The translations under genes were made by a program, and so were the position numbers. The notes below the pieces were generated by a model. It searched no databases. It was not told the origin of the DNA and was given only the letters and a program-made list of their open reading frames with translations. This document shows positions 3,971 to 62,704 of a stretch of 64,000 nucleotides of DNA, in pieces (positions within the stretch are counted from its first letter, which is position 1; every line of letters starts with the position of its first letter). The DNA is from Thuidium tamariscinum (lineage: Eukaryota; Streptophyta; Bryopsida; Hypnales; Thuidiaceae): positions 8,881,501 through 8,945,500 of the forward strand of contig OX344749.2 of NCBI GenBank assembly GCA_947034885.2, written 5' to 3'.

Positions 3971-4405
3971 TTAACCCCTAAAGGTCCAAACACAATTTTC
4001 TAGCAATATAGTGATTGGGTAGCTCACTATAGATGGGGTTTATATTTTTTCTTTGGAATTTTTACACGACATGTGCCCAAGGAGTAGCTTAAGGGTGCAA
4101 CAAATTTCAGAATTTCGTATATATGGCAAAAAAGTTATTGCATAATATGTTATTTTCTTTTAAATTTCCTTTTTAATTCAAAAGTCTTAAAATTGATTCT
4201 TTAGAATTATGTGTACGTGGGAGGCTTGGAATCATTCCATTTTGATTAATGAGATGAAAGTTATGAAGAGTTTTAGTTTGTTGGTAGGTATGAAGTTTAT
4301 GAGAATCATACCTACCTACAAACTAGAACTCTTCATAACTTTATCAAAATGGAATGATTCAAAGCCTCCCATGTACACACAATTCTAAAGAACCAATTTC
4401 AAATG
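3971..4405 (+). mobile_element. Family A foldback element, right end lost
   Basis: The left end is TTAACCCCTAAAGGTCCAAA, the same terminus as the 51954 copy. Diagnostic internal blocks are TAGCAA-ATAG, CACTATAGATGG, GACATGTGCCCAAGGAGTAG and AAAAAGTTATTGCATAATATG. From about 4190 to 4400 the sequence folds back: ATCATTCCATTTTGAT with its inverse at ATCAAAATGGAATGATTC, and GGTAGGTATGA with TCATACCTACC. The distal right terminus (expected TTTAGGGGTTAA) is absent, so this copy is truncated. Confidence 0.6.
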
Positions 4406-4439
4406 AACAATCCTAGGCTAATATAAGGTAACTGAGCCT

Positions 4440-5880
4440 ATGAGAGGGACAACTCTAGACATGCTCATTGTGGTCTCAAAAATTCTTATCATGTAGTGCC
4501 ATGTGTCTTATAGAATGTATCATGCAAGAAGAAGTGGAATTGCATTAGACTTGTCCACAGTTGTCAGTACCTGTCCTACACTGGGTGACCTTAGTTGCAT
4601 CTTGAGTTGCATCTTTAATTTTGAAGGTTTTCAGTCCCCTTCCAGCATTGGAGATCTGATATTTTCCTGCATTGCGAGCAAATCTTTGCTTACAGGTAGT
4701 GCTCCCCTCTGCCACTCAGGCCAGAATTCAGGCTTTCAATGTTTAACTTACAGCAAGTCTGGAAAGGGTCCCTGAAGTCTCCAAAGGAAAGGGTCTGAAA
4801 ACGGAGGTGCTGATCTAGAAGGCTGAATCTTGAACAACTGTCTCAAACAATTGGCATTCCGTCACATAATTTTGCCTCTGCCATTCCACTTTAATTCGTA
4901 TATGTAAGTTGATCCAGCTTTAGATAGTGTCAATGTCTGCTGCCCATTTTGCAGTTCTGACTCTTGGTTGGAAGTTGAAGATTTTGAAGCTACAAAATTT
5001 CATTACACTTGTGTTACACACAAAATCTATACAGATGTGTACATATATAACGTAGCTAGGTTCTCCCCACACTGGCAATCATTTTCTCCATTTTATGACG
5101 GATGAAGAGTTCATTTAAGCTTATGCATGTCTTTGTAAAATGTACACCTTCCGCTGTGTCCTGCCAGCTCTTACAAGTGCCTTGAACAGATGCCATTTCT
5201 ATGTTGACCATTTCTGAACACTCAGTCAGTTACATACAGTTACGCCTTGTGTTAAGTTCGTGCATTGTTGGCACCTGGGAACTGATCGAAGGCCTGCCTC
5301 AATTTTCACATGGGAATTGAAGAAGAACTGGCAATCGATCATCCACAATTCTACAAAATTCTAGTGGTATGGTGTAAGAGAGATTGAGAGAGAGAAAAAC
5401 TTCATGAATGAACCACCCATTGTTTTCATGATGTTTTCTTTCCACGCAGTGGACAAGAACCAAGGACTGACCGTCGGTTTGCAGAGTCCCACTCCAGTTC
5501 AGTCCTCCTTTTTTTTGGTAGAGTTGGTTTTGGGACGGTGATAATGTAGTGTAGCTCAGCTCTATGATCCATGCTTGCAGCGCTTTCAGTGCCAGAACTT
5601 GTGTTCCTGTGACAGATTTGGATCGCAGTCCCGCAGACACTGCTGGGGATTACACCAACAGGAAAACTGAGGCTCAGGAACTTCGTTCTGGAGCCTGGCT
5701 GCCTTCCCCAATCTGCGCTCTGCCACAACTGCACGGGAACCTTTAAGCGACAACGTGGTCAGCCACGAATAGCCGGGATCACAGGAGTCTTCAGTTGCAG
5801 AATGCAGCATCGCACTCCGCCGGAGGGCATCATTGTTGTATTGAAAAGGAGGTGAAAAGATCGACATGGAGGCCTACTAG
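4440..5880. other. Anonymous moderately GC-rich segment
   Basis: Composition is less AT-rich than the neighbouring repeats. Open frames on the plus strand at 4503-4775 and 5564-5746, and overlapping ones on minus at 5299-5867, show no recognisable domain. Splice-like sites (TTACAGGTAGT near 4690, CTTACAGCAAG near 4750) occur but do not build a coherent gene. It may be a lost gene's fragment or a non-coding transcript region. Confidence 0.2.
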
Positions 5881-5918
5881 CTGCATGGCAGCCGATTTTC
5901 CACAAGATTAGGAAAGGG

Positions 5919-6148: not shown

Positions 6149-6674
6149 AACTCAAACTAGACTTCAAAAAAAACTTTCCAAAAATATAAACCACTAAGGG
6201 CAAAACACCCATTCCCGCACTTGTTCCTTGAATGGATTATAGATTCACCCAATTGTGTCAGTAGACTTTCCTTAATGTGATTGCCACACGTGTAATTATA
6301 ATTAGCTCACACAGTTGAAGGACACATAGGAGAATCTGATTGGTTGAGTGCTAATTTTCGTGGGGTTTAGCTTTGGGGGCACCTACCGGATGGTTTCACA
6401 GGTCTAGGGAGCCAACACTTTGAAAAATTGTAGAAATTACATATTGTATCGAAAAAATATCTTTTTCTTTTTAAATATTCATGATTTTCACTCGCTACTA
6501 CTAGAAAAATATCATTTTTAGAAAACACTGCCTCCAACTATGCTGAATTCCTAATTTGCATGGTTTTGGGTGTTTCCACTGTACAATTAGTAACTTGGTT
6601 AGGTTTGATTAAACTTCAAAGTTTTGCAAACACCACCCAGATTTGGGGGCCTCGGGCATTTAGGGGTCAAGGGT
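6149..6674 (-). repeat. Family B remnant split by an insertion
   Basis: The left part (6149-6193) and right part (6584-6674) match neighbouring stretches of the B copy at 55495-56319: CAAACTAGACTTCAAAAA and ACTTTCCAAAAATATAAAC, then AACTTCAAAGTTTTGCAAAC. It closes with GGGCATTTAGGGGTCAAGGG, a mutated version of the TTTAGGGGTTAA terminus. The 390 bp between the parts are a later insertion. Confidence 0.5.
6194..6583 (-). mobile_element. Family G insertion inside the B remnant
   Basis: The right half (about 6409-6583) is the reverse complement of 54728-54905: GTGTTTCCAC end, TGAATTCC, a GCCTCCAACTATG block, GATTTTCACTCG and AGAAATTACATATTG. The insertion starts CAAAACACCCA and ends TGGGTGTTTCCACTG, so short inverted ends are likely. 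No open frame is found. Confidence 0.4.
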
Positions 6675-6689
6675 TAAGCTTACATCACA

Positions 6690-8806: not shown

Positions 8807-8884
8807 TAGTGCCACCCTTCATTTTTTTCCTGCCAGACTCATTGTAACTCAAATAAATTGTCACATGTCAAGGCATATATAATT

Positions 8885-9770
8885 CCTCAATGTCTAAGGT
8901 TAGACATTTTTGAGATTTTTGAAATTTTCTCAAAATTGAACTAAAAGTCAACATCTAATGAGTTTTGTAAAAAAAAATAAATTAGAATTGTACAAATTCA
9001 AACTAGACATGTTAGAACTCACAATGGAAAAAAAAATACAATAATATCACTAAGGCCAAGGTGAATTGATACCCTCATTGCCCCACAATTTACCCTTGAA
9101 GAAAATACTAAATTTTTTAATTGCAATACATGAATTTTTTTGGAAATATTGGAACCATATTTGCAATCAAAGGCTCCAAATTAGCCAATAGAAGTGGAGA
9201 TGAATACTAAAAAACATGGTACAAAATAGGGGTCAATTTTATGAAATTACCTTCAAGGGGGCAATCCTCCCTAGCCTATCTTACTTATAGATTGAAAGAT
9301 TATACTTTTCATGATGAAGGTGTTAAAACTATGAAAGTGATTTCTAGTCTTTCAATCTTCATGTTACAAGTCAAAACAAAAAAATTAATCACCAAAAAAA
9401 TATAAGGTTAGAAAGCATAACATGCATAATTCCAATTAATTTACGAATTTTTAAAATCTACTCTACAAAATTTTAAAATGAATTTCTAGTGCAATTTTTC
9501 TCCAATATCTAGTGTATTTGAAGCTCATTTCTAATAGCCTCAAAACTAGAAAATCAAGATTTGCAATGGCCACCTTTGCACAAAATATTGAATAGAAAAA
9601 TCATAACCACTTGCTTACAAAATCATATTTTCAGTGCTAAAAGTAGACTTCAAATTCCAAGTATTTTCAAACTTTTCAAAATATAAATTGCTCTGAGAAG
9701 TTAACTTAAAAAGATTTCATTTAACTTCAAACTATTGTCTAACACCAAAATTTGGTTGCAAGATTAATTT
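8885..9770 (-). mobile_element. Family B element, degenerate copy
   Basis: It matches the minus-oriented B copy at 55495 over its length: CCTCAATGTCTAAGG end, AAACTAGACATGTTAGA, ATCTACTCTACAAAATTTT, TCTCCAATATCTAGTGTATTTGA, AATCAAGATTTGCAATGG and AACACCAAAATTTGG. A stretch around 9070-9290 is not shared and may be an insertion. The TTAA ends have decayed. Confidence 0.55.
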
Positions 9771-10472: not shown

Positions 10473-10475
10473 TAA

Positions 10476-12363: not shown

Positions 12364-15300
12364 GGAGTGTAATGGCCCCTGTTATCGTGGGAGCCCGGGA
12401 TGATGCTAGTCAGCGCTTCCCTCCAAGAAGGGTTTTCGTACAAACCCAATTCCCGGCGGGTATGGCGGAATTTGCGCTAGACTTGTCTTGCAACCTTGCA
12501 AGAGTATAGGAGGTGTTCCGTGGTTTCGGTGCTTTGTGCGCTGCAGCTGTTGCAGAGTGGCGAGAATCCCATCACCGAACTCTAGCTGGCGGTGGGCAGT
12601 CCTCCCGAGTTGGTAAGCTAGAGAAAAAATTGGAGTTTAGTGGGTCTTCGGTTGTCCCATATGATTCGTGTCGCGTTGTCGGTTTCCTGTTGGTTGAGGC
12701 CCAGTTGCTCCATTTTCTTCTGTAAGCGTGACGTAGAGGTGGTTGAGTTGAGGCCGATTTGGTAACCCAACTTGGTAGAGTAGTCGTAGAAATTCTTGCG
12801 TTGTCCGTTCTTCAGTTGCCACGTCCATTCTTCCATGTCGAATTCGAGGTCACGGATCGCCCCCTGCAGCCACACCGTCCCTATGAATTTACAAGTTGGG
12901 TTGATGATGATGGAGGAGAGCTCACCGCCTGTTGTGATGACGCGCACTTGTTCCAGGGTTTTGCCGGCAAGGTCCCATAAATCCTCTTGTTCGTCGCTCT
13001 TGAAGAATTTGGCGGAGAGGTGATTGAATCTTTTTCCGGCTTGTGGTCCTTGGATTTGATATAGGATGGCTGTCGATTGTTGGGGGGATTCTATCACCCA
13101 TTCACAGTTTTGGAGGGGGAGGGTTTGGGCGAGCGACCAGGAGTCGAGGATGGCCTCAAGGATTGTGTTTTTCTTCTGTAGATTGAAACTACCTCCGATG
13201 ATGTTGCGCAGGTCTTTGTCGGACTTCCATGCTTGTTTGGAGTCGTCCCATAGATCTTGGATCGTCTTTATTCCCTTCCTGGCCCATGTGCTTCCAAAAG
13301 CGTATGGTGAGTTTCCCAACATTTCGTTGCCGTGATTTTTAAGTTCTCTGTTCTAGAAGATTTGTTGTCGTCCTGTTGCTTCTTTGCCTTCCGGTTGTAT
13401 GTTTTTTAGCCCCTGTCTGATGGAACACCAAGCCTTCCACACAGCCCACCACACGTCTGAACCCTTTCCGTTCACTCTGTTAGCGAATAGTATGAAATGA
13501 ATGCTTGGCGGCCATTTTCCCCCTCGTTTAGGGCTGATAGAGTTAGCTCAGTATTGGAGTAGAATTTTCCAGGGGGCATTCCCTGGCGTGAGACCTCTGA
13601 TCATAAGTTTGGCAAGTAGTGCTCGGATTTGTAGATCTAGGTCTAAGAGTTTAATTCCTCCTAGGTTGTGAGGTTGGATTAGGGAATTCCATTCGACTTT
13701 GGCCCTACATTTCCTTTCTCCGTTTTCTCCCGACCAGATATAATTCTGAATTAGGTTTTTGATCTCGGCGATGGTATCTTGGTGGGGTGCCCAGCAGGAT
13801 GCTAGGTACCAAATGGAAGCAAGTAAGACCTGGTTGGCTATCAGGGTTCTTTCGGCAAGTGAAAGCTTTGTGGTTCCCCAGTATGCTAGTTTTTGTTTCA
13901 GGTTTTGCATTGCAGTCCTGAATCTCTGTTCAGTGGGGACTTTGAACCCTATCGTAAACCCTAGGTATCTCGTAGTCTCACCTGGCTCAAGCCAATGCAG
14001 TGAGACTTCGGTTCCCCATACGAATGTTCTCGGATTGTTATTGATCCAAATCGCTTTTGATTTATGCCAGTTAATCTTAGATCCTGAAGCTAATGCAAAT
14101 AGATCTAATGCTGCTTTGGCCTTATCTAGGTTTTATGCCGTTCCTGCGAGATAGAGGTTGGTATCATCGGCAAATTCCTGGTCGATTACGCTATCTGTGG
14201 ATCCGGGCAGGTTGAGTCCTTCTACAGCGAAGTGTTCTAGTAAGTATCCTAGAGTGTCTGTAATAAATAGGTATAGGAAGGGGGCTAATGGACATCCTTG
14301 TCTGATTGATCGAGTTAGTTTAAAGGGAGAGCTTATAGTTTTGTTGATTTCTACTGAGCACCATGCGTCCGCGTAGAGTGTTCTAATCCATTTAATCCAT
14401 TGCGGGTTGAAGCCAATTGTTGCTAGTGTTCCCTCTAGAAAGTTCCATTCTACTCTATCGTAAGCCTTTTCAAAGTCCAATAGAAGCATTACCATGGCCT
14501 GTGAAGATTCCGTGGCCCATTCCATGGCTTTGTGAGCCAGAAAGACATTGTCTATAATGCTTCTGCCTTTTATGAATCCTGTTTGATTTGGGCGGATTAG
14601 GGTGTCTAGCAGGGGTTAGAGTCTTCTAGCTAAAGTTTTAGCAATGATTTTATAGATTGTCCCTAGCAGCGTGATTGGTCTCCAATTTTTTATGTTTGTT
14701 TTGTTACCTCCTTTTGGTATCAAGCATACTAAGCCAGTGTTAAGGTTTTGGTGTAACTTACCTATGTTGAGCGCTTCCTGGCTAGCTCGAAAGATGTCCT
14801 CTCCAACTTCCTCCCAGAGCTCCATGTAGAATTCACCAGGTAGACCGTCCTCCCCTGGTGCGCGTCCTTGTGGTAGGGCTTTCAACGCTTCTAGGAGTTC
14901 CCCTTTGGAGATGTCTTTTGATAGGTCAGCATTCATTTGGTGAGTGACTTTCCTGGGGATGGCCGACCAGCACCTATTCCTCGCTTGCGAAGACTATGGC
15001 GTATCTCTCTGCGTGGTGAATAGCTCCTGAAAATACTTTGTGGCGTATTCCGCCATCTCATTGTTAGTGTTGTATTCCTTCCCTGCCTCGTCGATTAGTT
15101 GTGGAATCGGGGGGTAGTCTTGTGTTGTTGTACTCCCAGGAAGAAATCCCTCTTCATTCTCCCCTCGATTTGGAACCACTTCGCTAAGTTTGTGATGGCC
15201 TCAGATTCGGCCTTAGATATCTTGATTTCCATTAGTTCCTGTTGCGCTTTGTTCAGGGTTGATTGAAGGAAGGGATCGTTGGGGTTATGTTGTGAGAGTC

Positions 15301-16333
15301 TCTCGGCTGAGGTTAGAGTCGATTTGAGTTGGGAGATTCTAGCTCGTTGGTTCTGTATTTTCTCCTTTCTTTCATTGCTGCTCAGGTTCTTGATTCTGTC
15401 AATCGCCGATGCTACCCATGCCATCCAGCCTATCTGGTTTGGCTCTGGTCTGGTTCCATTGTTCCAGGCCTTTGTAACTTTCTGCTTGAATTCTCCGTTC
15501 TTGAGGTAGGTCATGTTGAATCGGTATGTTTGGTTCCCCTCCGAATTGCCAAACTGATTCCTGATTGAGAGTAATACTGGGAGGTGGTTGGATAGTGTGT
15601 TGAATCCTTCTAGGATTCTCGTCTTTCCTCCTCTGTTACGAAACCAATCTCCCACATAGAATCTGTCCAACCTAGCATATAATTGTTCGTTCTCTCTTTT
15701 ATTGGACCACGTATATTTGAGTGTGTTCCTAGAATCAAAGTCGTCACTGAGGTGAGCGTCTTCAAGACCTAGTTTGAACATTATGTTATCCCAAGCTTCT
15801 TGTTCTGTTCCTTTAATTAGCTTCAGTTTTCCGTTTCTATCATTGTCATTCTCTATCATGTTGAAGTCACCTATTATTGTCCAGGAGGAGGTAGTAGGTA
15901 GTTTGGTATTTATGAGGTCCCATAGTTTAGCTCATTCTCTGCCTCGGTTTGGAGCGTATATGTTAAGGAAGTTTATTTCTTGGTTTTCGATTTTACAGAT
16001 GATGTATTGTGCTCTTCCTTCGCTTATAATACCGCTTTGTGTGATTAGTTGGTGTAGGTTTCCTGATAGTATGATTCCTGTTCCTCCTTGATATCTGTTG
16101 ATTTCTGGGTTTAGAACGGTTCTATTCCAAAAAGCCTTGCCTCTTTTGATTCCTATTGGGCCTATTTTTTCGCATAGTTCTTATTTCATCTTATGTTCTT
16201 GAAGGAAAATTATGCTTGGTTTAGGGGAGATGTTGTTAATATGTGTTCTAAATCTTCTGCGTTTTTGTGGCCCTTGGGTTTGGCAAGAGAAGCCACGAAC
16301 GTTCCAGGTTAAAATGTTGATGGTGTCATTCAT
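12364..16333 (-). pseudogene. LINE ORF2: endonuclease-reverse transcriptase, broken
   Basis: The start ATG (16333-16331) overlaps the end of ORF1. Endonuclease motifs: ILTWNVRG, LQEHK, GGTGIIL, NIYAPN, GDFNMIEND and LSNHLPVLL (His near 15586). Reverse transcriptase motifs: KNWRPITLL, LLLDFEKAYDRVEW (Asp near 14477), IRQGCPLAPFLYL, and the catalytic FADD at 14174-14163. A CNSC...HLLYSC zinc finger lies near 12500-12557. In-frame stops end at 16181, 15932, 14994, 14616, 14133, 13548, 13353, 12618, 12582 and 12477. A frameshift falls at a six-base G run (plus strand 15109-15114), where the reading frame needs one more base. Downstream of the last stop the frame runs open to the edge of the element. 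The protein would nick DNA and copy LINE RNA at the target; this copy cannot make it. Confidence 0.9.
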
Positions 16334-18728
16334 CTATGGGTTTGGGTGGGGGTTCTATTAAGTACCATTGTGGGTTTAGTGTTGTGATGTTTTTTAATAG
16401 GTGAGGTGCATAGAATTTGAGATCTTGCTTCCATTTAGATGTTTGACTTGTTAGGTTTTGTGGTATGAAGATTACAACTGTGTGTTTTTCTCCTTGCTTC
16501 ATCTGTTTTCTGATATCTATGTTGTTGATTTTTAGAGAGGGAGATTTACTGTTTTTTTCCTTGCATAACATCCATTCCTTCACTTCTTGATATATTGTGT
16601 TTTTCAAAAGAGAGGGATCATACCAGGCGGCTTGTGGTGCTTGGATCTGTGGCTAGTTCACCGCTCCTTCCTTGCGTTGTATCAGAACGCATTCCGATGT
16701 TTGTCTTGGAGCGGCCCTGATGACTACGTTGATCTGGATGCTTCCGTTTGCATTGTTGGCTGCTTGGGGGGTCCTTTCGCTGGCTCTCTCCTGTTGGGCG
16801 GGTTGATGCTGTGAGTAGCTATCTTGGTGTAGCGGTGTTTGCTCCTCTCCTAACTCAGTTGTTTCGGCTTGGCTGTTTTCAGGTTCTGTGGTGGTCATTG
16901 GAGAGCTGTTGTCATCTTCTATCGATCTTTTCTTGAGGGTTGGTCGATTTGGCGAGTTGTCCTTGCTGCACGTTCCTTCGTCTTGGTTCGAGTTGCTAAT
17001 CCTCATGTCACTGTCGTTGGGTTCCATTTGGATGTGCTAGTGGTTTGCGAGCATTTGGAAGGAGAATCTAGCGTCGATGTCCATCTCCCAGTCCGGGCTG
17101 GTCCAAATCTTTAGGTCGTCTTCTAATGTCCATTGGTGGGTTGACTCTTCGATGAAAAAGGAGTCATCGCTGGATGTGTGCTCGATCAGGGCGAGTACGT
17201 GGCATGTGTGGGTGCTGTCTTCATGTTGTTGCCAATTGTTAATCCACTCTATGGAGCTCCACATCCTATTGGCTAAGCATCGACTACTTGCCCTTGTGTT
17301 TTTTTCTAGATCAACCTGCAATTGACTCCAGCAGCTTGCTCTCAATGTGTCGTTAGTTTGTTCCTTACCTGTGGGCAGAGAGATACGTGTTCCCTGTAGC
17401 TCTGCGTTCAGGAGGCTTAAATAGCGTTTAGTACCCCCACACCATGTATAGATAAGTGGCCATAGTTGTAGCCGTTTCTCTCCAATTGGTGTGTTTGGGA
17501 ATTTAAGAAGTTCCCAGATGGATTCATCTAGGATACTAGTTGATATTGGCCTTTTTTTGCTTTTGTTGGTGTTCTTGTTGGTCTGTGTGGTAGGGAAGTA
17601 GGGTTGCTGTTTTTTCCCTTTTGATCCTATCGAGTGTCACTCTCCTGCGGAGTGGTTCGTTTCCGGGTCTTGGGCCGTGAATTGGGGAGTTCCGGTGCCT
17701 GGTTCTATCTCTATTGTGGGTGTCTGGGACTGGTTGACCTGGTGGGGTGCAGGTTGACTAGCTAGGTTTCGGGGATTGAGTCTAGCGTTGGATTTGTTTG
17801 GATTGTGTGTCTATAACTCCTGTGAGTTAGGTTCTTCTGAGGTTGCCGTAGTTTGGTGTTTGGTTTCCTGGTTGGGTGGGTGATTCATGTTGTGGGGTCT
17901 CTCAGGTTCGGGTGTTGGGGAATTGTCTGTCTGGGAGGGTGGGATTTGTCTGTTCTGAGACTGCTGGTTCTTCTATTGGGTTTTGGATTTGTTTACTACT
18001 TTGGTCTGTTTGGTTTTAGGACAGCTTTGCTCAGCGTGTCCTAGTTCCAGGCAGTTTTGGCACTGAGATGGTATTCCCTCGTATTCCAGGAGGATTTCCA
18101 CTTCTCCTGTTGAATGTGGGATTGATAGGATGACTAAGGCTGGGAGGTTCTTTGTGTTCTCGATTAGAACGCATACTCGCGGTGTAGAGGATTTTTTGAG
18201 GTAATCTTCTTCTTTTCCACTCCATACTACTTCCCCAATAGCCGAACTAATTTCTCTCAATGCCTTGTAGTAGACATCGTCAAGTAGGGGGAAACGGATC
18301 CACAGTGGGATCTTGATTCCTTTTGGCGTTATTAGGTTGAACTGCGGTTGCTAGGGGTGTAGATACAGTTGGTGAGGACCAAATGTGAGTGGGCTCTGTT
18401 GAAGGGCTTGAGTGGCACCTTCTTCGTGGACGAAGGTTAGCACGAAATAACCTCTCTGCAACATACGTATTCTACTAATTTCCATTTTTGGGTCGACTAG
18501 GTTTACATTGACCCATTCCAGTAGCTCAGCTCTGGATGGGTGTTTGGTGGGTGCGAATCCTATTAAGGCTAGGCATGAGAGGGAGAGTGCTTCTTGCTCT
18601 AGGACTGCGATTGTGCTGGGGGAGAGGGTAGGTCTTAGCTGGTGCCTGGACGGATAATGCGCGGCCTTGATCGCTCTTGAGGTTTTACCCCAAGCGTTGG
18701 TCTTGGCGAGTGCTTTAGTTTCCTCCAT
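16326..18728 (-). pseudogene. LINE ORF1: DUF4283 / zinc-knuckle protein, broken
   Basis: One continuous frame of about 800 codons from ATG 18728 (MEETKALAKTNAWGKTSRAI) to TGA 16328-16326, interrupted by six stops ending at 18351, 17973, 17811, 17637, 17037 and 16653. The first ~240 codons match the plant LINE/retrotransposon DUF4283 pattern (FVLTFVHEEGATQAL, FNLITPKGIKIPLWIRFPLL). A CCHC zinc knuckle follows, CQNCLELGHAEQSC (about 18062-18021). Then come a Gln/Asn/Pro-rich linker and a long, more ordered C-terminal part (LDESIWELLKFPNTPIGEKR; WSSIEWINNWQQHE) that I do not recognise. The family packages or chaperones LINE RNA. The length is generous for a plant LINE ORF1. Confidence 0.85.
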
Positions 18729-19158
18729 GACTGGAGTAACTTCCCGGCTCCTCTAAATTGCTACTCTACTACGGGGGGGTCATGGGTGGAGGTAGCTACG
18801 CTGGCGTACAGGTTCTTGCGGTTGGAAGTTCTGAGTGCTCTACTGGGTGATCGGTTGAGACCTGTTCGAGCTTGTTGCACGAAACGACAACGGAAACGAC
18901 AAAAGCTGGTTTTAGGTTTAGGTATAACTAGCTTCCTTGTTGTGACGTGCTTGTTCGAACGCCTTGATTGGATGGTCCTGCTGTTGCTGCTGGACGAGAG
19001 GCGTTGTTGTGGCGCCGGGGAGAGTCTGGCGACTCCCCCAGGGCGCCGTCTTCGCGACGGACTTCCCGCTTCGCTTCAGCGCTTCGCCGCCATCACTTGC
19101 TCCTTTCTCCCCCGCGTCTTCTCCGTACCCACACTCATGAGGCGGACAGTTGCATCTC
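18729..19158 (-). promoter_or_regulatory. LINE 5' untranslated region, GC-rich
   Basis: A 430-bp leader between the target duplication and ORF1 ATG, strongly GC-rich and CpG-containing. LINEs usually carry their RNA polymerase II promoter here. No TATA box is evident. The element starts GAGATGCAACTG on the minus strand. Confidence 0.6.
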
Positions 19159-19689: not shown

Positions 19690-20561
19690 TTTAAAGACCC
19701 CCTAAAAGAGTTTATTTTCTACTTTTTGAGAATAGACTCAACCACAATTCTTGACTTCATTAATTGAATTTTTTGGATGAATTTTTTAAAATGGATACTA
19801 ATCATCCTAATCTACATGTGAAGCATTGTTTTACATCATTCTAGTAAATACTACAAAAAATAGAAGGTTCTTTTTTATTTCAATGTCAAATCTAGTAGCA
19901 AAAAATATATTCTAAAAAATATTAAATAACTTATTTAGATTGTACAGATTGATACCTACTTAAAAATATAAAAATAAAAAAACATTTGAACCACAATTCT
20001 AAATAATGAGGTGAAACTTTTTCATAGAAAAATATTAAGGTAAAAAACAACCAATACAATTATCTTTTACATTCAATTTTGAATATTTTCAAATTAATAC
20101 AAAAATTAAGAATATTTATATTTTACTAAAACATCCTCACCATTCGGTTTAACAATTTTAAATTTTTGTAAGCGTTATTAGTAGTTTAATTTCTTCTCTC
20201 ATTCACTATCACCTTCTAGTTTATAATTTTTTAAAGATAAATATGAATTTAACCAATCATATATCCTCAACTCATTTTCCAACATGATATTGGCTGAAGT
20301 TCACAAATGATAGGGCACATGCGCTATTTTTCTTGAAATGTTGAAAGACGAAACTTCACCTTTTGGAAGGGCCAAAAAATTTATATTTCAAGGTTCATGC
20401 ATATTGAACTTGCAATTGTTTGGGATATTCACTCTAAAATTTTGGGATGGTGAATTTGGATAAATTAAAAAATAACCATATGATTGGTTTCCTTGAAAAT
20501 AAGTATGACAAAGAATTTAGACTTGCTTTGGAGGGATAAAACTTGCCATGAAAATGGTTAA
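19690..20561 (-). mobile_element. Family J single-arm element
   Basis: It matches one arm of the palindrome at 31105-33002: AATCTACATGTGAAG, GATTGATACCTACT, AACATCCTCACCATTCGG, TTGAAAGACGAAACTTCACC, GGAAGGGCCA and CATGCATATTGAACTTGCAATT. The right edge abuts TTAA at 20558-20561; the left edge near GACCCCCTAAAAG is a decayed terminus. No coding sequence. Confidence 0.55.
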
Positions 20562-21751: not shown

Positions 21752-22404
21752 TTAACCCCTAAATGTCCAAGGCATCAAAATCTAGTGTTTGCAAAACTTT
21801 GAAGTCATATAAAACCTAACTAAGTTGTTAATTGTAGTAGTTTATATTTTTGGAAAGTCCTTTTGAAGTTTAGTTTGAGTTTCAAAAATCTGATTTGGAA
21901 AATGAGTGATAGTAATTTTCCTATTCAAAACTTTGTATAAGGGTACCCAATGCAACCTTCACTTTTTGTAGTGTTGAGAGCTCTTGAAATTGAGCCTCAA
22001 ATATACTAAATCTTGGAGAAAAAATCACATTCAAAATTCATTTACAAAAGTTGTAGAGTAGATTTTGAGAAGCCATAAATTGATTGGAGTTATGCATGTT
22101 AGGCCCTTTGACCTCATACTTTTTAGGTCACCAACTTTTCAGATTTGATTTGCAAGAAGAGGATAGAAAGACTTGACATCACTTTTACAATTTCGACACC
22201 CTCGTGGTCAAACATTATAATCTTTCACTTCATAAGTGATATTGTTGTGTTTTCTTTTCCTATGTAATCTTTAACATATTTGGTTTGAAATTGTACATTT
22301 ACATTTCAAATTAATTGATACAACATATCAAAATATTGGCATTTTGTATAATTTAGAGCAAATTCCAAGAAGCTCAAAATAGGCCTTGGGCATTTAGGGG
22401 TTAA
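21752..22404 (+). mobile_element. Family B element, intact TTAA ends
   Basis: TTAA (21752-21755) is followed by CCCCTAAATGTCCAAGGC. The right end is GCCTTGGGCATTTAGGGG followed by TTAA (22401-22404). The terminal inverted repeat of 18 bp has one mismatch. The 645-bp interior is AT-rich and has no long open frame. Near-full copies lie at 8885, 55495 and 56440. This is the best-preserved type copy for the TTAA group. Confidence 0.75.
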
Positions 22405-23560: not shown

Positions 23561-24526
23561 AATCCCTCAGAGCCCTAGGGGACCAAAAGTGTCCTCACAA
23601 AGTTTGCAAGTTCAATTTGAAGTATTGTAGCTTTTGCATCTAATGCCCAAATTTAATAAAGCTTATTGGAAAATGTGCACTCTCTTTTCTAGTTTGTATG
23701 GTAAAAATTCAAATCAATCCAATAATGTACTAATGTTTAGGAAGCATTCAAAGTTCATGGGTTCAATTTGATCCCTCTAAACTTCATTTTGATGGTTGCA
23801 ACTTTGAGGCCTTGTATCTCCTTCATTCAATGCTTGTTTTAAAAAACACCTTGCTAGGTTATATTTCCCTTGAATTCTAGTTATTGTTTAAGAAAATTTA
23901 AGTCAATCCAAAGTTTTTTTTAAATGTTTTAAAAGGGAAACTCAAAGTTCAAATTATCTAGGCATTTTTGCATTACAATGAACTTTAATGGCTTGTTTCT
24001 TCTTCATTTCATAGTATTTATTTTCAATAAAGATTTTAGAAAAGTTTTGCATACTAGTCTAGTTTGAATGGTTAAAATGTCACATCAATATAAGAAGATA
24101 TGAGTGTTTGAGAAGCATTTTAGTAGGAGGTTTTGCCTCAATGTGTGTTTTCTTGCTATTTTCTTACATTCCAAAACATTTTGTAGACACAAATAGTCAA
24201 TTGAATGATTTTTTTTACCATTGTATTTAAATACACTAGTTTTGAATAACTTAATAGTTTAAAGTTTTCTCATTTGAGTAGGTTTAGAAATCAAATTTAA
24301 TCTCCAAATGTGTTTTGAGGAAAATTTTGTCATCTTTTTCAACACTAAAACATAAAATCTTACAATTTATGTGACCAAATGACTCCAAATTTGACTCATG
24401 TCATCTACAATACATTCATTACAAGATTTTTGAGTTGAGATTTCTATTCCTTAGTGACATTTAGACCTATAAAACTTCAAAAGCAATGATGTTTTTAAAT
24501 CCCAAAAGGCCTTGGGTTTTTAAAAG
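23561..24526 (+). mobile_element. Family H element, diverged copy
   Basis: It is collinear with 27453-28419: CCCTAGGGGACC near the start, AGCTTTTGCATCTAATGCCCAA, a GGCTTGTATCTCCTTCAT-like block (GGCCTTGTATCTCC), TTTCAACACTAAAACAT, and the CCTTGGGTTTTTAA end. TTAA has decayed at both ends. No coding sequence. Confidence 0.6.
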
Positions 24527-37551: not shown

Positions 37552-37811
37552 GACGGGATCAATGCTAGTTCAAATTTGCTCTTGTAGATTCCCCACTAAA
37601 TTTTGTAGGAATTTTGGTTTATTCTAGATAAAATTTTAGAATTCATATTTGGAACAAGAGACTCCAAATTTATTATGTGAGATCATTGAATATATAATTA
37701 ACTCCTTGACAATAGTCAAGACAATTTTTTATGATTATTTGCTTATTGAATTTTTTTGAATTTCTGCACCTTGGACTATGATGCTAGTGTGAGAGCATGA
37801 AAATGCAAAGA

Positions 37812-42276: not shown

Positions 42277-42615
42277 AGCCATCATTGTCCTCCCTTTCCT
42301 GGCTTACAGATCCGGGTGTATCATAACTACTTCTTTGCTTGGCTTTTTGTGGTCCGACCCGCTCTTCAAAGGTTGCTACAATGCTTAATTAATTAATCAA
42401 TTATTTGTGTTCTCTAGCCAGGTCTGTTGATTGGTGCTGGACATAAAGGTGAGCTGAGTAAGCACAGAGCCAGGGCGCTCTGCCCCTATCTGGAATTCTC
42501 CGCTGCAGTCAAAGGAAGTCTTGTTTAAGGTAGTATGCTCTAAGAGCGAGCGCTGTTCTAAAAGCGATCATAGATCATGTACACAGGAGTACATTTTGGT
42601 TACTGCAATGTACTA

Positions 42616-42885
42616 AGGTGGGTACACCTAAAATTGCACCTCACCTAAAAGTACCATCTATAGTTGCTGTACATTTCTGAATTCCATTATGTACCTATTT
42701 GGCTGGAGCGCTTTTAGGAACAGACTTTGAACCTTAATAACTTTTGCATACTATATCCAAATGCTGCGTTTTTTGGTGCATTGGAACGTGCTTTCACTTG
42801 CCAAGAAGACTATGAAAATTTGATCAGACCAGTAATAGTTACTAGGCACAGTACCAAAAAGTGGCACTTTTAGGTATACCCACCT
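42616..42885 (-). mobile_element. Family E MITE (TA target duplication)
   Basis: The ends AGGTGGGTACACCTAAAA and TTTTAGGTATACCCACCT are inverted copies, flanked by TA (42614-42615, 42886-42887). 270 bp, opposite in orientation to the copies at 47221 and 63191: TTGGTGCATTGGAACGTGCTTTCACT here matches their AGTGAAAGCATGTTCCAACG. Non-coding, Tc1/mariner-type structure. Confidence 0.75.
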
Positions 42886-42889
42886 TAGT

Positions 42890-47217: not shown

Positions 47218-47220
47218 TTA

Positions 47221-47493
47221 AGGTAGGTACACCCAAAAGCGCCACTTATTCATACTGAGCCTACATCCTGCTATTAATTAGTTCAAATTTTTATGTAGCC
47301 TTGTTGGCAAGTGAAAGCATGTTCCAACGCACCAAAGAATGCAGGATTTGGATACTGTTTGCAAAAGTTATTAACAATCAAAGTCTGTTTCTGAAACCGC
47401 CATCTACAGTCTGTGAACATGACTGATTTCGGAAATGTATGTGCACTGTAGATGGCGCTTTTAGGAACATGGCAATTTTGGGTATACCTACCT
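47221..47493 (+). mobile_element. Family E MITE (TA target duplication)
   Basis: Ends AGGTAGGTACACCCAAAA and TTTTGGGTATACCTACCT, flanked by TA (47219-47220, 47494-47495). 273 bp, about 85% identical to 63191-63462 by eye. Non-coding. Confidence 0.78.
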
Positions 47494-47497
47494 TATG

Positions 47498-50651: not shown

Positions 50652-51603
50652 TTAACCCCTAAATCCTTGAATTGTGTTTTTTAGCAACATAGAAATTTTG
50701 GGCAACTCACTACAAATGGAGTTTTGTTTTTTTTCTTTGAAATTTTTATAGAACATGTGCTTGAGGAGTAGCTTTAACGTCCAACAATTTTCATAACTTT
50801 TGACTACATGGTTTAAAAGTTATGGCATGATACGTTGTTTCCTTTGAATTGCAGGTAGCCTGGGCAACAAAAACACTTCTTTATAAATTATTTTTTTAAG
50901 AAATAAAAATTTGAAATAGGTTTATTAGATTTTTATCTATGTGTGAAGGTTTGAATAATTCTATTTTGATAAATGAGCCAAAAGTTATAAGGAATCTTAG
51001 TTTGTTGTAGTTTGTGGGTAGTTATAGAATTTCCACTCTACAAAAAAGTTTGAAATTCTTTATTTAATTAAAATTTTAATATTTTTGAAGAAAAAACTAA
51101 AACATTGGGTGAAGATTGTTTATTACAATACTTTAACCATTGGGATTTTCATTTTTCATTTTTATAAATAAATTGTTCACAATTTAGTATTTTCAAGCAT
51201 TTTCTACTTCTTTGTACTTACTATTCTTTTTCTATATGTTGTACAATTCCAAATGATTTGAAGTTTTTTGATCATATAGCCAACTTGAATTGTAAAATTA
51301 ATTCAAAGAGTAACCATAATTTTGAGTATTTTTTTTATACAAATGTAACCTTGTGAAGTGTAGCTGCCTGGATTTTTGCAGGGATAAAAAAAGGATTTTG
51401 CTAGTTCAAATGTTAATATCTTGCAATCTATACAATGAAAGTTTCTGAAATTTTTTCCACATCTTTTCAAGCCATCTAACTACAATATCCTATGGTTAAA
51501 TATGTCAAAAAATGTTTTTTTTCAAAAAAATTGCACTTGTACTAGAAATCGCAGTTTTGTAGTGATTTGGGTGGAAACATAGTCAAAAACCTTTAGGGGT
51601 TAA
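50652..51603 (+). mobile_element. Family A full-length element, TTAA ends
   Basis: TTAA (50652-50655) then CCCCTAAATCCTTGAA; right end CAAAAACCTTTAGGGG then TTAA (51600-51603). 944 bp interior, AT-rich, non-coding. It starts with the same arm as the foldback copies (TTTTAGCAACATAG, GGGCAACTCACTACAAATGG, GAACATGTGC). An inverted, diverged partner lies at 52617-53586. Confidence 0.72.
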
Positions 51604-51953: not shown

Positions 51954-52370
51954 TTAACTCCTAAAGGTCCAAACATCATTTTTTAGCAACATAGCAATTT
52001 TGGGCAATTCACTTCATATGGAGTTTTTATTTTATCTTAAAAATTTCACACAACGTATGTCCAAGGAGTAGCTTTAAGGCCCAACAATTTCCATAAATTT
52101 TGAGTATAGTTAAAGAGTTAGTGCATAATATGTTATTTTCATTGTTTGGCATGAAGTCCATGCAACTCAAAAAACTTCTTTAAAGAATTTTTTTCTTAAA
52201 ACAAAAATTTTAAATGATTCTTTAGATTTATATAGGCATGGAAAGCTTTGAATCATTCCATTTGGATCAATGAGATGAAAGTTATTTTAGTTTATGGGTA
52301 GCTATGGTTTTTCAAAGACTCCATACCTACCCAGAAACTAAAATTCTTCATAACTTTCATCTCATTGATT
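51954..52370 (+). mobile_element. Family A short foldback element
   Basis: TTAA (51954-51957) then CTCCTAAAGGTCCAAAC; arm blocks AGCAACATAGCAATTTTGGGCAA and GTCCAAGGAGTAGCTTTAAGGCCCAAC. It folds back at about 52250-52368 (ATGAGATGAAAGTTAT with CATAACTTTCATCTCAT). The right arm is missing, as in the 3971 copy. Confidence 0.6.
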
Positions 52371-52616: not shown

Positions 52617-53586
52617 TTAACCTATATCGATTCTAGAAGGAATCTCTAAAGGTTTTTGATTATGTTTTCATCAAAAATGCTCCAAAATTGTGATTTCTAA
52701 TACAAAAACAAAATTTTGGAAAAAAAAACATTTTTTGACACATGTAACTATAGGATCTTGTAGTAAGGTGTTTTGAAAATATGTAAAAAAAATATCAAAA
52801 ATTCCCACCATGTAGATTGCAAGCTATTAGCATTTGAATTGACAAAAATCCTTTTTTTATCCTTGCAAAAATCTAGGTAGTTGCACATCACAAGGTCACA
52901 TTTGTATAAAACAATGCTCAGAAAATGATGGTTATTTTTTGAATTCATTCTTCAATGCAAGTTGGTTACATGCTCAAAAAATTTCAAATTAATTTGGAAT
53001 TGTACAACATATATAGAACAAATAGTCAATAGAAAAGAGGTAGAAAATGATTCAAAATACTAAATTGTGAAGAAGTTTATTTATGGAAATGAAAAATGCC
53101 AATCCCAATGGTTGTGATATTGTAATAAACAATCTTCAACCAATTTTGTTTTTCAAAAATATTAAAAACTGAATTAAGTAAAGGATTTCAAACTATTTTG
53201 AAGTGTAGAGATTCTATAACTACCCACAAACTACCTTAAACTAAAATTCCTCATAAATTTCACTTCATTATTCAAAATGAAATGATTCAAAGCTTTCTAC
53301 ATATATATACATTTAATAAGCCAATTTCAAATTTTTATTTATTAAACAAATAATTTATAGAGAAGTTTTTTTAGGGGCCCAAGTTACTTGTTGAATAATG
53401 AAAACTACATATCATACCATGATTTTTTAACCATGTAGTCAAAAGTTATGAAAATTGTTGGGCCTTAAGGTATTTCTCAGGAAAATGTTGTGTGAAAATT
53501 TCAAGGAAAAAAAAATTCATTTGCAATGAGCTACTTGAAATCACTATGTTGCCAAAAAAAATGTAGTCTAGGGCTTTAGAGATTAA
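52617..53586 (-). mobile_element. Family A full-length element, inverted partner
   Basis: TTAA (52617-52620) and TTAA (53583-53586). The reverse complement is collinear with 50652-51603: TAAAGGTTTTTGATTATG, ACATTTTTTGACACATGTAACTATAGGAT, ATCCTTTTTTTATCCTTGCAAAAATC, AATTCTATAACTACCCACAAACTA, AAGCTTTCTACATA, CACTATGTTGCCAAAAAA. About 75-80% identity by eye. Some extra bases precede the left arm. Confidence 0.68.
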
Positions 53587-55494: not shown

Positions 55495-56319
55495 TTAATC
55501 CCTCAATGCCCAAGGTTTGTTTTGAGCTTCTTGGAATGTGCTCTAAATTGAACAAAATGCCAACATTTTGATAAATTGTATCAATTTTAAAAAAATTTGT
55601 AAACATACTACTTCAAACTAGATATGTTAGAGATTGCATAGGAAATGAGAACACAACAATATCATTTATGGTGTGAAAGATTATAATGTTTGATAATGAG
55701 GGTGTTGAAATTGCAAACATCAGAAAAGTTGGGCCAGACTGTTTAGTGCTATTTTGACACCAAAGGTTGCATTTTCTCCTTACTCAGTTGGTATGGGAGT
55801 TAGCACCAAATTTACTTGATTGCATTTCAATGCACCATCATGGCACCATATTCACATGCCGTGAAGTTCTTGATGAAAGTGATGTGAAGTCTTTCTATCG
55901 TTTTTTTACCAGTCAAATATAAAAAGTCGGTGACCAAAAAAATATCACGTTAAAGGGCCTAAAATTCGATCATAATTCCAATCAATCTATGGTTTCTCAA
56001 AATCATTCTACTTTACAATTTTTGTAAATGAATATTAAATGTGATTTTTTCTCCAAGATCTAGTATATTTGAGGCTCATTTTCAAGAGCTCTCAACACTA
56101 TAGAAAGTCAAGATTGCAATGGGTACCTGTGCACAAAATTTTGAATAGAAAAATCACTATCATTTAGTTTCCAAATTAGATTTATGACATTCAAACTAGA
56201 CTTCAAAAATAACTTTCCAAAAATATAAACTATTAAAATAGAAAACTTAGATAGGTTTTATTTTAACTTCAAAGTTTTGCAAACACCAGATTTTGGTGCC
56301 TTGGACATTTAGGGGTTAA
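55495..56319 (-). mobile_element. Family B element, left member of inverted pair
   Basis: TTAA (55495-55498) then TCCCTCAATGCCCAAGG; right end GGTGCCTTGGACATTTAGGGG then TTAA (56316-56319). It is longer than the type copy because about 55730-55860 (GGCCAGACTGTTTAGTGC...GCACCATATTCACATGCC) is extra. Non-coding. Confidence 0.68.
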
Positions 56320-56439: not shown

Positions 56440-57083
56440 CCCTAATTGCCAAAGGCACCAAATTTTAGTGTAAGTTGACAATACTTTGAAGTTCAATAAA
56501 ACCTTATCAAATTATTATTTTTAGAAGTTTTTATTTTTGAATTCTTTGAAGTTTAGTTTTAACATCAAAAATTTGTTTTTGTAAATGAATGATTATGTTT
56601 TTTCTATTTTAGATTTTGTGTAAGGATGTCCATTGCAAATCTTGATTTTCTAGTGTTAAGAGCTCTTCAAAATAAGCCTCAAATACACTAGATCTTGGAG
56701 AAAAAATCACTTTATTAATCCATTTTATAAGGTTGTAGAGTAGATTTTGAGAAGCTATAAGCTAGTTGGAGTTTTGCATCTATAAACCTCATATTTTTTT
56801 GGTGATCTCAATTTTAGATTTGACATTTGAAAACAAGATTTAAGGACTTCTAATCACTTTCACTTTTACATTTTAAACACCCTCATCATCAAACATTGCA
56901 ATCTTTCAATCTATAAAGAAACATTGTTTGTTTTTTTCCTATGTCATATGTAACATGTCTAATTTGAATTTGTATGGTTAAAATCCAAAAAAGATTGATA
57001 AAACTACTAGAATGTTGTCTTTTTGTTCAATTAAAAGCAAATTTCAAGAAGATCAAGAAAGGCCTTGGGCATTTAGGGATTAA
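56440..57083 (+). mobile_element. Family B element, right member of inverted pair
   Basis: Left end CTACCCTAATTGCCAAAGGC (TTAA decayed); right end GGCCTTGGGCATTTAGGGA then TTAA (57080-57083). Collinear with 21752-22404: GTGTTAAGAGCTCTTCAAAAT, ATCTTGGAGAAAAAATCAC, GGTTGTAGAGTAGATTTTGAG. With 55495-56319 it forms an inverted repeat around a 120-bp spacer. Confidence 0.66.
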
Positions 57084-59081: not shown

Positions 59082-59084
59082 AAT

Positions 59085-59294
59085 CACTACAAGAGAAAGG
59101 GGTGTTTTAAGTATAGTCCTAGAGATAATATTTTAAGTAATGACCTTTATAGGAGACTTTAAGTAAGAAATAAGTGTCTCTCTAGTAAAATTTTACTAGA
59201 GACACTTATTTCTTACTTAAAGTCTCCTATAAAGATCATTACTTAAAATGTAATCTCTAGGACTATACTTAAAACACCTCTTTCTCTTGTGGTG
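59085..59294. mobile_element. CACTA-type hairpin MITE, AAT target duplication
   Basis: CACTACAAGAGAAAGGGGTG at the left and its near-inverse at the right. The two ~103-nt arms are about 95% identical, meeting near 59190 at GTAAAATTTTAC with almost no loop. AAT is duplicated at 59082-59084 and 59295-59297, a 3-bp duplication with CACTA ends as in CACTA (En/Spm) elements. Transcription from either side would give a long double-stranded hairpin. Confidence 0.8.
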
Positions 59295-59297
59295 AAT

Positions 59298-60596
59298 ATT
59301 GAAAACTGAGTCAATTGTCAATTGTGAATATTATCCTATGCATGTAGAATACTTTCATAAAACAATTTGGTGAAGATTGTAATTTAATTATTTTCATTGT
59401 GCATTAATTCCTATCCACTAGTTGACATTTTGATATATTCTTGTCTATATTTTTTAAAGAGTTTAATTTGTATGCACTATTCTCTACACAAGATTTTTGT
59501 AAAGGTGACCAACAATGACTTTAACAATAAAAATTAGTTCACTTGCATAGACAAGAGATGAAAGGGTTTAAGCTCCTCATTGTTATTGTTGTAGTAGGCC
59601 ATCCCATATTCATATTTGAATGTAACTTATTAGTTCTATATTTTTTCTATAACACCTCTATTTTTCAATGGTAATACAAGATAAAATATAGTTTAAAAAA
59701 TGTATCTTCCTAAAGTTCAATAAGAATAGGAACCGTTTTCAACTACTTGCTTCTTGATGTTACAACATGGAGGAGTTTACATGTGAATGGTTTTAGATGA
59801 ATAGTGGGTAATTTAATTCTCCCTTCTAGAATTACAAAGACAAATAAAATTGAGTATAGATTTGAAATTTTTTCATTCAAACAACCACACCATATCAATG
59901 GGCAAAGTTCAAAAGTAGATATACCAAAATTGTAATTTGCAACATATGACACATTACTACGAAGGTTTGAAGAAAAAACTAGTTGTGATGTGAATTAAAA
60001 ATAATTTCAAAGTTAGTCATGTCTGAAATTCAGTTTTGTATGGTATAATATGGAATCAATTTATACTTTTGGTCAATTTAAAAAAAAATTGTGCCTTGGC
60101 ATATTGATATACATCATTTTAGATTGTTGTACACAATAATTGGAGGAAATTGACATCTACAAAATTAAAAAAATTTACTAGTTGACAAAAATGCAAATGA
60201 TGTTGGTTTCCAAGATATTTGAATATGTTCTTTTGAAATTGAGGACATGGAATTGCATTAGCCATTGTAGAAAATAGGTTGAAAAATGAATTATCCCTTG
60301 TATGTCTATATTATTGTAGGTTGGGTGCAAATAGAGTGGAAAAACAAAATTAATTGTGGAAATTGATCTTTTGGGGGCATTATTGTTCCAAGATTTGAAA
60401 TCCCTTTCACTTTGGTTCCAATTCACCAATTGAAAAAATTATTCAAAATATAAATTACAAAAAGTTGAAGGTGAGAAATTACATTCATGAACTTTTATTT
60501 TTTATTTTTGTTATACATGCATATCATTCATTCTTGTTATAAAGTAAATAAACATTTAACTATTTACAATTGGCATTCCAACAAAATTTATAGTTT
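59298..60596. other. AT-rich intergenic DNA, nothing recognised
   Basis: No gene; minus frames at 59743-59952 and 60178-60429 lack any domain or supporting context. Confidence 0.4.
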
Positions 60597-62704
60597 TTAA
60601 TCCCTTAAGGTCAAAGCCACTCCATAATTGAATTGCTTTTAGTACAAAGTTTTGTATTGTAGACGTAATCAAGTCAAATGATAAATCGTAGATTTCATTT
60701 ATACAATGGAAGTTATAGTTTTCAATGAAAATTTGTCAATTTATAATAAGTGATTATCTTTAAACTATTATAATTTAAAAAAAAGTTTCAATGATGGCAT
60801 TAAGGTTGGAGATAGTTCATGTCTTGATCTCAGTTGACTCACTAAAATGAATGTAACTTTGAGAGATTTGTATTTAGAAAGTGAGAGCTCTCAATGGATG
60901 AAGAGTTGTAAAAGTACAAAAGAAATTTATTGTAGGATGACAAGTATTGTATACTATATTCCACAAAATTGAAAAAAACAAAACAATCTTACATTAGAAA
61001 ATAATGAATCTCAAAGTTTTAATTCTTCAAGATTTGAAATTTTTGTTAATTTTGAAGAGTTTTGATTGGATCAAAAGATATAGGACTATGGGACCTTCTT
61101 GGCAATCCTTGATAATCTATGAATTGCCATGTAAGCTATTATTAAATTGAAATTGAAATAATTTTGATGTAAATGCCATTTGATAAACCACTAACGCTTT
61201 GTTTAACTTGTAGAGTGCCAAATTTCCCTTGAGGGACAAGATTGATGTTAGGTACGCTTACGCAAATCTTAGTTTTTGATGTGATTTTATGAATTTGAGA
61301 AAAAAAAATAGAAAAATACTTCAGCTTTAAGGAAATATAATTTGTATTTCATTTTGTGTATGGGAAATAAGTTATGCCATGATATACTCACTAAAATGGG
61401 GCGGAAATTGGATAGACAAAAATTCTCAAAAATATTGAATTTTTTTCCACTTATAGATTATGATTTTGTCTACATGAAAAGTTTTGTTTCATTCTATTTG
61501 GTTTGGTGATGTGCAAATTATGGGTGTTCTTCTTTGTAAGCAACAACAAAAATCTCTTGAGGGAATAATATATTGGATTTTATTTTGAACTCAATTCATA
61601 CAATTTAAGGAAAAAAAACCCACAAGGATAAATACTCCTACTTGATCAATCTTAGTGTTGGAATTAGTGGGCTTCAATTCCATTTTCAAGCTATTGACAA
61701 TTTTTTTTTTTCAATCTTGTACCTACTTCTAGTCAACAATGTTTTAAAGAATGAAGATGATGCTTTTTTAAACCCTTAAAATCCTAAGACCTTTTATCTC
61801 TAAAAAAAACAATCAAAATTGCCAATTCTTTTACTAGGTGCAAAACTCTTAAATGTTTCATTTTTTTGTATATCTAACTTTAGTGTCTTAAATTTAAAAA
61901 ATATAAAAATGTCTATTAGAAAGACTTTTAGTAGACAATAACTTTTAGTGCATGGATTGTAAGATATTGGCATTTAAAGTGAAGAAAACAAGTTTCTTGA
62001 CACATTTGGTGATTAGATTTTTTGGCATTGAAGCTTTTTCATTGAAATTTTTTGCACTATCAAGTTTAAGGTAAAAATTTGTTATGTTGAAGATTTGAAT
62101 TGAGAATTAGGGAAGAAAAAATAAAGGAAAAACACCTAAATCTCATTCATTAAAAAATTATTAGGTAGAAGTAGGTTTGAAATTGAACAAATCCTCAATA
62201 AAATTGTTAATAGCTCTAAGATGGAATTGAAACATTATATTTACAAAAGCAAGATTGTTTTTGCAAAAAAATTTAACCAAATCAAACAAATGTTTTTGAA
62301 AAAAATTGTGAAAATTGCATTCAAAAATGAATTTTTGAAGTTGTTTTTTCAGGAAGAAGTTTAGATTGTTTGAAATACTAGATTGCCCATAACTTTTTAA
62401 TTATTAGTTAATATAAAATGAATCAAAGATTTAAATGTAGACAACAATATATTCTTCAAGAATTTAAAAAAATCAAGCTTTTGTATTTTATTTGTACTAT
62501 CCAATAAACTATTTTTTGGACTTAGGGTGGCATAACTTTTTCTACTCGGAATTCATTGAAATAAAAATTATATTTTTAGAAGATAATGTCATATACTATC
62601 TTTAAAAAATAAATTCAAAAAATCATGTGAAAATTTGAAGTCACATGAGCTTGCCCAAGATCCCAAGTGTAACCTTAGGAAACTTGTGGGACTTTAGGGG
62701 TTAA
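60597..62704 (+). mobile_element. Family K element, 2.1 kb, TTAA ends
   Basis: TTAA (60597-60600) then TCCCTTAAGGTCAAAGCC; right end TTGTGGGACTTTAGGGG then TTAA (62701-62704). Largest member of the TTAA group. Inside, about 61390-61720 is partly inverted at about 62150-62560 (TTAGTGTTGGAATTAGTGGGCTTCAATTCC against GGAATTGAAAC-type sequence; weak). No frame long enough for a transposase. Confidence 0.5.

Follow-up and report, generated by a model that had tools for sequence, protein, structure and literature searches.

In a 64,000-nucleotide stretch of the moss Thuidium tamariscinum (GCA_947034885.2, contig OX344749.2, positions 8,881,501 to 8,945,500; hereafter the window), many repeats lie between TTAA tetranucleotides and begin with CCC-type ends. 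We consider it very probable that these repeats form about six families of non-autonomous piggyBac elements, comprising miniature inverted-repeat transposable elements (MITEs) and larger derivatives, which inserted at TTAA and were moved by several autonomous lineages located elsewhere in the genome. An earlier interpretation made from the letters of the window (the sequence-only reading) had proposed a piggyBac-like group in a plant, mobilized by a single transposase. Its piggyBac assignment was borne out by the TTAA duplication, the CCC ends, and the DDE_Tnp_1_7 genes present inside 17 long elements with such ends. The plant host was also apparent from the 363-Mb assembly, in which the window corresponds to G000:C1:8881501-8945500, since there is an rbcL-bearing contig alongside 11 chromosome-size contigs (17.5 to 54.2 Mb); the best rbcL match was on a contig of 115,000 bp, and a contig of 103,123 bp is also present.

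The sequence-only reading had delimited eight copies, and TTAA was found on both sides of all eight: 21752-22404, 27453-28419, 29638-30235, 31105-33002, 50652-51603, 52617-53586, 55495-56319, and 60597-62704. The common terminus that it described, or variants of it, was likewise seen at their ends. BLAST grouped these copies into A (21752 and 55495), B (27453), C (29638), D (31105), E (50652 and 52617), and F (60597), meaning that several distinct families were present as claimed, but six of them rather than seven; lone ends at 20558, 34177, and 46823 may be further families. The proposal that such elements fill roughly a quarter of the window agreed with our estimate when homologous stretches were included (24.7%), but not for the eight copies alone (14.0%). 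Over the 16 bases past TTAA, the terminal inverted matches of the eight copies were, in order, 15, 10, 7, 5, 10, 5, 13, and 9, while random TTAA pairs gave a mean of 4.7, with at least 8 in 7.7% and at least 10 in 1.0% of pairs. Five of the eight pairs thus reached 9/16 or more, and three were weak. The best match belonged to the 653-bp family A MITE at 21752-22404; the other family A copy, 55495-56319, carries a 158-bp insertion at 55718-55875.

We compared copies within families to assess their boundaries, and two of the eight left boundaries, those at 31105 and 52617, failed. Homology of the latter copy to 50652-51603 stops at 52639, where the target-site duplication (TSD) has decayed to GGAA, and the TTAA at 52617 scored as an end of the opposite direction in the weight matrix described below; we therefore moved this family E copy to 52639-53586. 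For 31105-33002, a hairpin-like element whose interior (31283-32922) is self-complementary (74%), the right end is plausible, and the left gained no support from the comparison of copies. The boundaries of 29638-30235, which has a terminal match of 7, are supported because the corresponding ends of two other family C copies mostly stop at TTAA too (3/4 ends: 27453-27456, 26740, and 30466, the fourth being decayed).

Ends of this type are abundant throughout the genome. The looser end motif, TTAACCCYWAANNG, occurred 21,405 times, compared with 286 times for its reversed control, and the exact motif including TTAA, TTAACCCCTAAANGNCCAAGG, which corresponds to family A ends, occurred 2187 times, with 0 for the reversed control. 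Without the TTAA, the exact motif was found 2690 times genome-wide, and in 2187 of these cases (81%) it directly followed TTAA. For the first Mb of C1, 25 forward and 23 reverse ends were listed, and at spacings of 0.2-2 kb they formed 11 convergent combinations, involving 10 different left ends, vs. 1 divergent combination; three of the convergent combinations were 930-932 bp long. A weight matrix trained solely on transposase-bearing elements outside the window (14 elements, 28 ends), with the TTAA columns included, detected 24, 21, 19, and 15 sites in the window at 10, 12, 14, and 16 bits, respectively; the corresponding means in dinucleotide shuffles (n = 30) were 3.4, 1.17, 0.33, and 0.13, with a maximum of 1 at 16 bits. 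TTAA is frequent in the window (488 occurrences), which would favor a chance origin, or one from CCCTAAA, the plant telomere unit, falling beside TTAA in an A+T-rich genome. However, the excess of ends over the reversed control and of matrix sites over the shuffles, together with near-fixed family lengths, opposed ends, and the empty sites presented below, reduced the probability of this explanation to almost nothing. The window gave no Rfam match at gathering thresholds.

The sequence-only reading had suggested searching the genome for DDE_Tnp_1_7 genes between matching termini, and these were found, with the gene enclosed by TTAA-CCC ends in 17 of 20 fetched loci (designated here by L and a number). 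The enclosing ends matched at 9 to 14 of 14 bases; in 15 loci the pairs were identified by script, while L017 and L025 are colinear copies with both boundaries in common. All 28 ends of 14 transposase-bearing elements start with CCC, these elements having been chosen by TTAA and end similarity. In the moss genome, all 116 scored candidates (of 659 candidates) were above the cut-off for PF13843, with a best E of 5.7e-80, whereas none of 14 control genomes contained a match. Nine out of nine submitted open reading frames (ORFs) matched PF13843 over nearly its full length, and two matches to DDE_Tnp_1 were below the cut-off. The catalytic aspartates of Trichoplusia ni (T. ni) piggyBac are D268, D346, D447, and D450. 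When one transposase was compared with T. ni piggyBac (PDB 6x67; E 5e-33), all four aligned to Asp, and a profile of 13 sequences identified piggyBat (5.9e-58) and piggyBac (1.1e-52). In the 13 aligned transposases, D538, D625, D741, and D744 (L019 numbering) were invariant, and a C-terminal cysteine-rich domain (C839, C842, C850, C859, C864, and H869) was kept in at least 90%; this domain was absent from the L022 frame as cut.

A tree of 20 transposases resolved five deep groups, in which L022, L024, and L017 fell into separate clades, each with 100/100 support. We compared the catalytic part of ten pairs for the ratio of nonsynonymous to synonymous substitution (dN/dS), and nine gave output: L016/L019, L017/L025, and L017/L020 had values of 0.10-0.12, and four pairs were saturated. 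In the informative pairs, the transposase is under purifying selection. Near-identical copies were also present, as L012 and L013, which lie in different flanks, show 99.6% identity across 5.6 kb, and among the 116 scored candidates at least 10 loci, compared by score and frame, had an equal score (269.4 bits) and an open 1023-residue frame. Mirrored transposase copies were observed at C8:23933884 and 23941055 (L006 and L007; ~7 kb apart) and at C9:19502615 and 19517900 (~15 kb apart). A viral origin or carrier was considered and rejected, as viral contigs scanned using the alignment of transposases yielded 64 pattern matches, none confirmed, and no relative.

We also weighed whether another superfamily that targets TTAA, such as Kolobok or Sola, generated the window families, with the piggyBac genes present by coincidence. 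Kolobok likewise uses TTAA, according to passages of PMC6004289, and Sola, which produces 4-bp duplications, occurs in the moss Physcomitrella, as stated in part of PMC10741241. The same passages on Kolobok describe ends starting with RR (e.g., AGG) and a transposase with a THAP domain (PMC6004289), whereas the ends here start with CCC, and the nine submitted ORFs contain PF13843 and no THAP domain, although the genome was not searched for transposases of the Kolobok or Sola type. The 4-bp duplication is held in common with Sola, but the fetched long elements carry piggyBac genes (no Sola model was searched). In addition, the sequence shared with piggyBac-bearing elements extends past the first 8 bases in L053 and L046 and in families B, E, and F of the window. 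For these reasons, we regard an origin from Kolobok or Sola as very improbable.

Sites without the element provided a further view of the target duplication. We screened 59 candidate pairs with at least 60 bases of flank per side, as well as 20 end-motif loci, 14 of which passed the end-match filter, and found three empty sites, each without a second target copy; two read TTAA and one CTAA. The autonomous element L024:2824-7996 sits inside a repeat, and an unoccupied copy of this repeat lies in the window (homologous stretch 6202-6583), with a single TTAA at 6272-6275 (minus strand). Similarly, the non-autonomous L053:257-1101 has an unoccupied counterpart in the window at 61861-62170, inside family F (70% identity over 316 columns), with a single TTAA at 61974-61977 (minus strand). 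Direct repeats of at least 5 bases outside TTAA were found in 0 of 33 elements, and outer repeats of 1, 2, 3, and 4 bases were found in 8, 3, 2, and 1 of the 33, close to chance. Three outcomes had been named beforehand as counter-evidence, namely, empty sites lacking TTAA, a different duplication, and a different transposase; none was seen, among long elements that were fetched only around DDE_Tnp_1_7 genes, with no search for elements bearing another transposase. Two weak alignments (L025:825-7695 vs. L025, 72%, TTTA; L027:1565-7060 vs. L027, 68%, TTAA) were set aside, as were that of L044, which joins two elements abutting at a single TTAA, and that of L049 (TCAA). Other insertions in the related-empty-site (RESite) screen lacked TTAA and were assigned to other element types.

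To relate window families to autonomous lineages, we compared bases 9-40 of 14 window ends, i.e., those of six of the eight copies (31105 and 52617 were left out) and two lone ends, with the 28 autonomous ends, using 500 shuffles. The left end of family B at 27453 matched L022 (score 15, reached by 0/500 shuffles). Three family E ends matched L017, namely, those at 51954 (score 19, 0/500), 3971 (score 11, 0/500), and 50652 left (score 12, 0.002 of shuffles). The right end of the 2108-bp family F element at 60597 matched L024 (score 14, 0/500), with 78% identity to the L024 end over the terminal 91 bp on this side; the right end of 21752 in family A also matched L024 (score 9, 0.010). Outside the window, the left ends of L053 and L046 matched L019 (score 20) and L024 (score 18), respectively. 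Ends in common with autonomous elements were therefore observed for families B, E, and F and for one end of A, while the case for C was unconvincing. The claim that one transposase mobilized all of these families was not supported by this comparison. In its favor, all families have TTAA and, next to it, a CCC(C/T)-A/T-rich start or something close to it, and one broad-range enzyme would be compatible with the sequence, with several window ends having no significant autonomous match. However, bases 9-40 point to L022, L017, and L024, whose transposases belong to separate clades, and we judge a single enzyme to be very improbable. Because the ends of different families match different autonomous lineages, several divergent transposase lineages appear likelier than one, as far as the end sequences indicate.

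A number of observations weigh against our interpretation. No significant autonomous match was obtained for 6 of the 14 ends (both ends of 55495-56319, 21752 left, 27453 right, 50652 right, and 29638 left), and matches to L018 or L011 were weak for 29638 right (0.014) and 60597 left (0.038), the latter pointing to a lineage other than that of the family F right end. These shuffle values apply to each end and are uncorrected for the number of ends. With no transposase remnant above noise in the window (best 3.0 bits), the link of the window families to the autonomous lineages is through their ends. Regarding the long elements, L020, L021, and L026 (3/20 loci) had a single TTAA-CCC end within the fetched stretch, the pairs used for L010, L015, and L025 were not top-ranked by the script, and the close pairs L014/L024 (dN/dS 1.53) and L020/L021 (0.37) had few changes and were uninformative. 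Regarding the target, CTAA was the reading at the unoccupied paralogue of the L015:2164-8234 site, and only 1 of 7 junction-spanning paralogues of L053 reads TTAA, the other six being TTGA, TGAA, or gapped. None of the empty sites found belongs to the eight copies, and the joined flanks of 21752-22404 matched, in the genome, their own flanks and 30 short repeats at one edge only.

On balance, we favor a model in which the window families would have inserted at TTAA by cut-and-paste, using enzymes supplied by several divergent autonomous piggyBac lineages elsewhere in the genome, with each lineage recognizing the CCC-starting ends of its own derivatives. As observations behind this model, we counted the flanking TTAA, the ends that some of the families have in common with transposase-bearing elements, and the TTAA duplication relative to empty sites, along with the conservation of catalytic and zinc-binding residues, the purifying selection seen in informative pairs, and the near-identical copies. 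By analogy with T. ni piggyBac, excision would proceed through hairpins and be followed by seamless repair, integration would be directed to TTAA, and non-autonomous copies would be mobilized in trans.

Upstream of the catalytic frame, we detected a conserved stretch of ~100 residues in 18 of 20 transposase loci using a profile built from 11 loci (e.g., L017:7347-7670, L020:8012-8335, L025:2463-2786, and 15 others). In one clade, its core reads HLRSLP..WPANP..NYRHHFYRQAA..LGW..RR.F...VWPD. Of the seven positive loci outside the training set, L012 is nearly identical to a locus used in training, whereas E values for the remaining six were 3.5e-8 to 8.8e-14; L014 and L024 lack the module, their scores coming next at 7.2 bits, compared with 8.5 in shuffled peptides. 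Comparison of the module with Pfam, NCBIfam, and PDB returned only noise (best 0.11, 0.034, and 0.51, respectively). In 5/5 loci of one clade, homology stops at ATGGGTAAG, a sequence that looks like a splice donor, while no donor was recognized at the end of the module in other clades. Because homology stops at this donor-like sequence, the module is probably the N-terminal part of the transposase, encoded by a separate first exon and joined by splicing. A genome search with one module member gave at least 127 matches (150 of 253 candidates scored), of which at least 40 had a same-strand DDE match downstream at a gap of 1.5-2.7 kb, where ~0.1 would be expected; this pairing is a lower bound, as 116 of 659 DDE candidates were listed. 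Among these listed DDE matches, opposite-strand downstream partners and the reversed order were each found for 0/127.

The mechanism is that of piggyBac, and the moss elements depart from the known ones in their host, in how many lineages coexist, and in the module. T. ni piggyBac (6x67, 6x68) and piggyBat (9c0f) resemble the moss elements in their homologous catalytic domain, four aspartates, and C-terminal cysteine-rich domain, as well as in the TTAA target and the CCC-type termini. Unlike these, the moss elements reside in a plant, have the upstream module, probably as a separate exon, in 18/20 loci, and show a catalytic domain that, in the nine submitted frames, begins between residues 356 and 732 counted from stop to stop. 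PiggyMac and other domesticated piggyBac proteins share the core, the cysteine-rich domain, and an N-terminal extension, as described in passages of PMC8086355, whereas here 17/20 fetched genes are flanked by a pair of transposon ends. Animal piggyBac MITEs, such as those of coral (PMC2872659), are likewise short, non-coding members of the group, but the moss families are in a plant host, and within this single genome several of them are linked to distinct transposase lineages. Their size and abundance are similar to those of the plant MITE and terminal inverted repeat (TIR) superfamilies covered in reviews.

The presence of piggyBac in plants may not in itself be novel. In sections of a 2023 review, piggyBac is not among seven plant TIR superfamilies (PMC10741241), the portions of PMC9985172 available to us do not mention it, and in PMC10619864 the string occurs twice, both times within "piggybacking". 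Excerpts of other sources count it among seven MITE superfamilies of angiosperms (PMC10004981) or among plant class II superfamilies (PMC10794571), name plants among its hosts (PMC8086355; PMC10813416), or report 1230 short piggyBac fragments totaling 122 kb in a fern (PMC6890710). Among the open-access titles and abstracts searched, we found no account of an autonomous piggyBac in a moss or other land plant. Since most research on piggyBac and most of its uses concern it as a transposon of animals, the ~twenty thousand candidate ends, near-identical copies, and open frames observed here would extend the range of hosts for which natural piggyBac has been described in detail. They would also offer native plant elements for testing seamless excision, raise the question of the module's role, and suggest that TTAA MITEs of plant genomes may be misfiled or unclassified. 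We lean, by a modest degree, toward a large, old, and still active piggyBac radiation in mosses or in this lineage, with at least five deep transposase lineages and an intron-separated N-terminal module without a described relative, in which a plant-type piggyBac gave rise to a major share of the non-autonomous DNA.

Additional copies and relics of the window families were identified by homology. Family A has a further copy at 56440-57083 (TTAA at the right end, left end decayed), a relic at 8880-9756 that is broken by ~231 bp, and a fragment at 6149-6670. The fragment is split by a separate 385-bp insertion, 6197-6581, with a TA duplication when compared with the family A copy that lacks it, at 21835; the L024 piggyBac element has as its target a second copy of this insertion. 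Family B relics are present at 23572-24507 (TSDs decayed) and 34639-35294, and a family D relic at 19723-20444. The other family C copies are 26740-27456, with TTAA at both ends, and 30466-30940, in which the left TTAA is retained and the right end has decayed. Family E includes the partial copies 3971-4404 and 51954-52369, each with the single TTAA end compared above (the latter being the best L017 match), and relics at 36071-37552. Adjoining elements share or nearly share one TTAA at 27453-27456, where the left end of family B meets the family C copy, at the left end of L054, and at L011:6865-6876, which suggests repeated insertion at TTAA flanking an older element.

Other features of the window include an apparent non-LTR (long terminal repeat) retrotransposon on the minus strand at 12618-18752, spread over several frames and including a reverse transcriptase domain, and a 2-oxoglutarate (2OG)-Fe(II) dioxygenase gene on the plus strand at 39858-41378, with the DIOX_N and oxygenase domains in two separate frames. 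A hairpin at 59085-59294, flanked by a duplication of 3 bp (AAT), has CACTACAAG/CACCACAAG ends, and a 93.5% identical copy lies in L025 (8767-8982); judging by its end type, it resembles a CACTA MITE. Finally, a repeat of ~280 bp is present at 42612-42887, 47219-47495, and 63189-63466, with matches also in the fetched loci, and the copy at 47219 has AAGGTAGGTA/TACCTACCTT ends.

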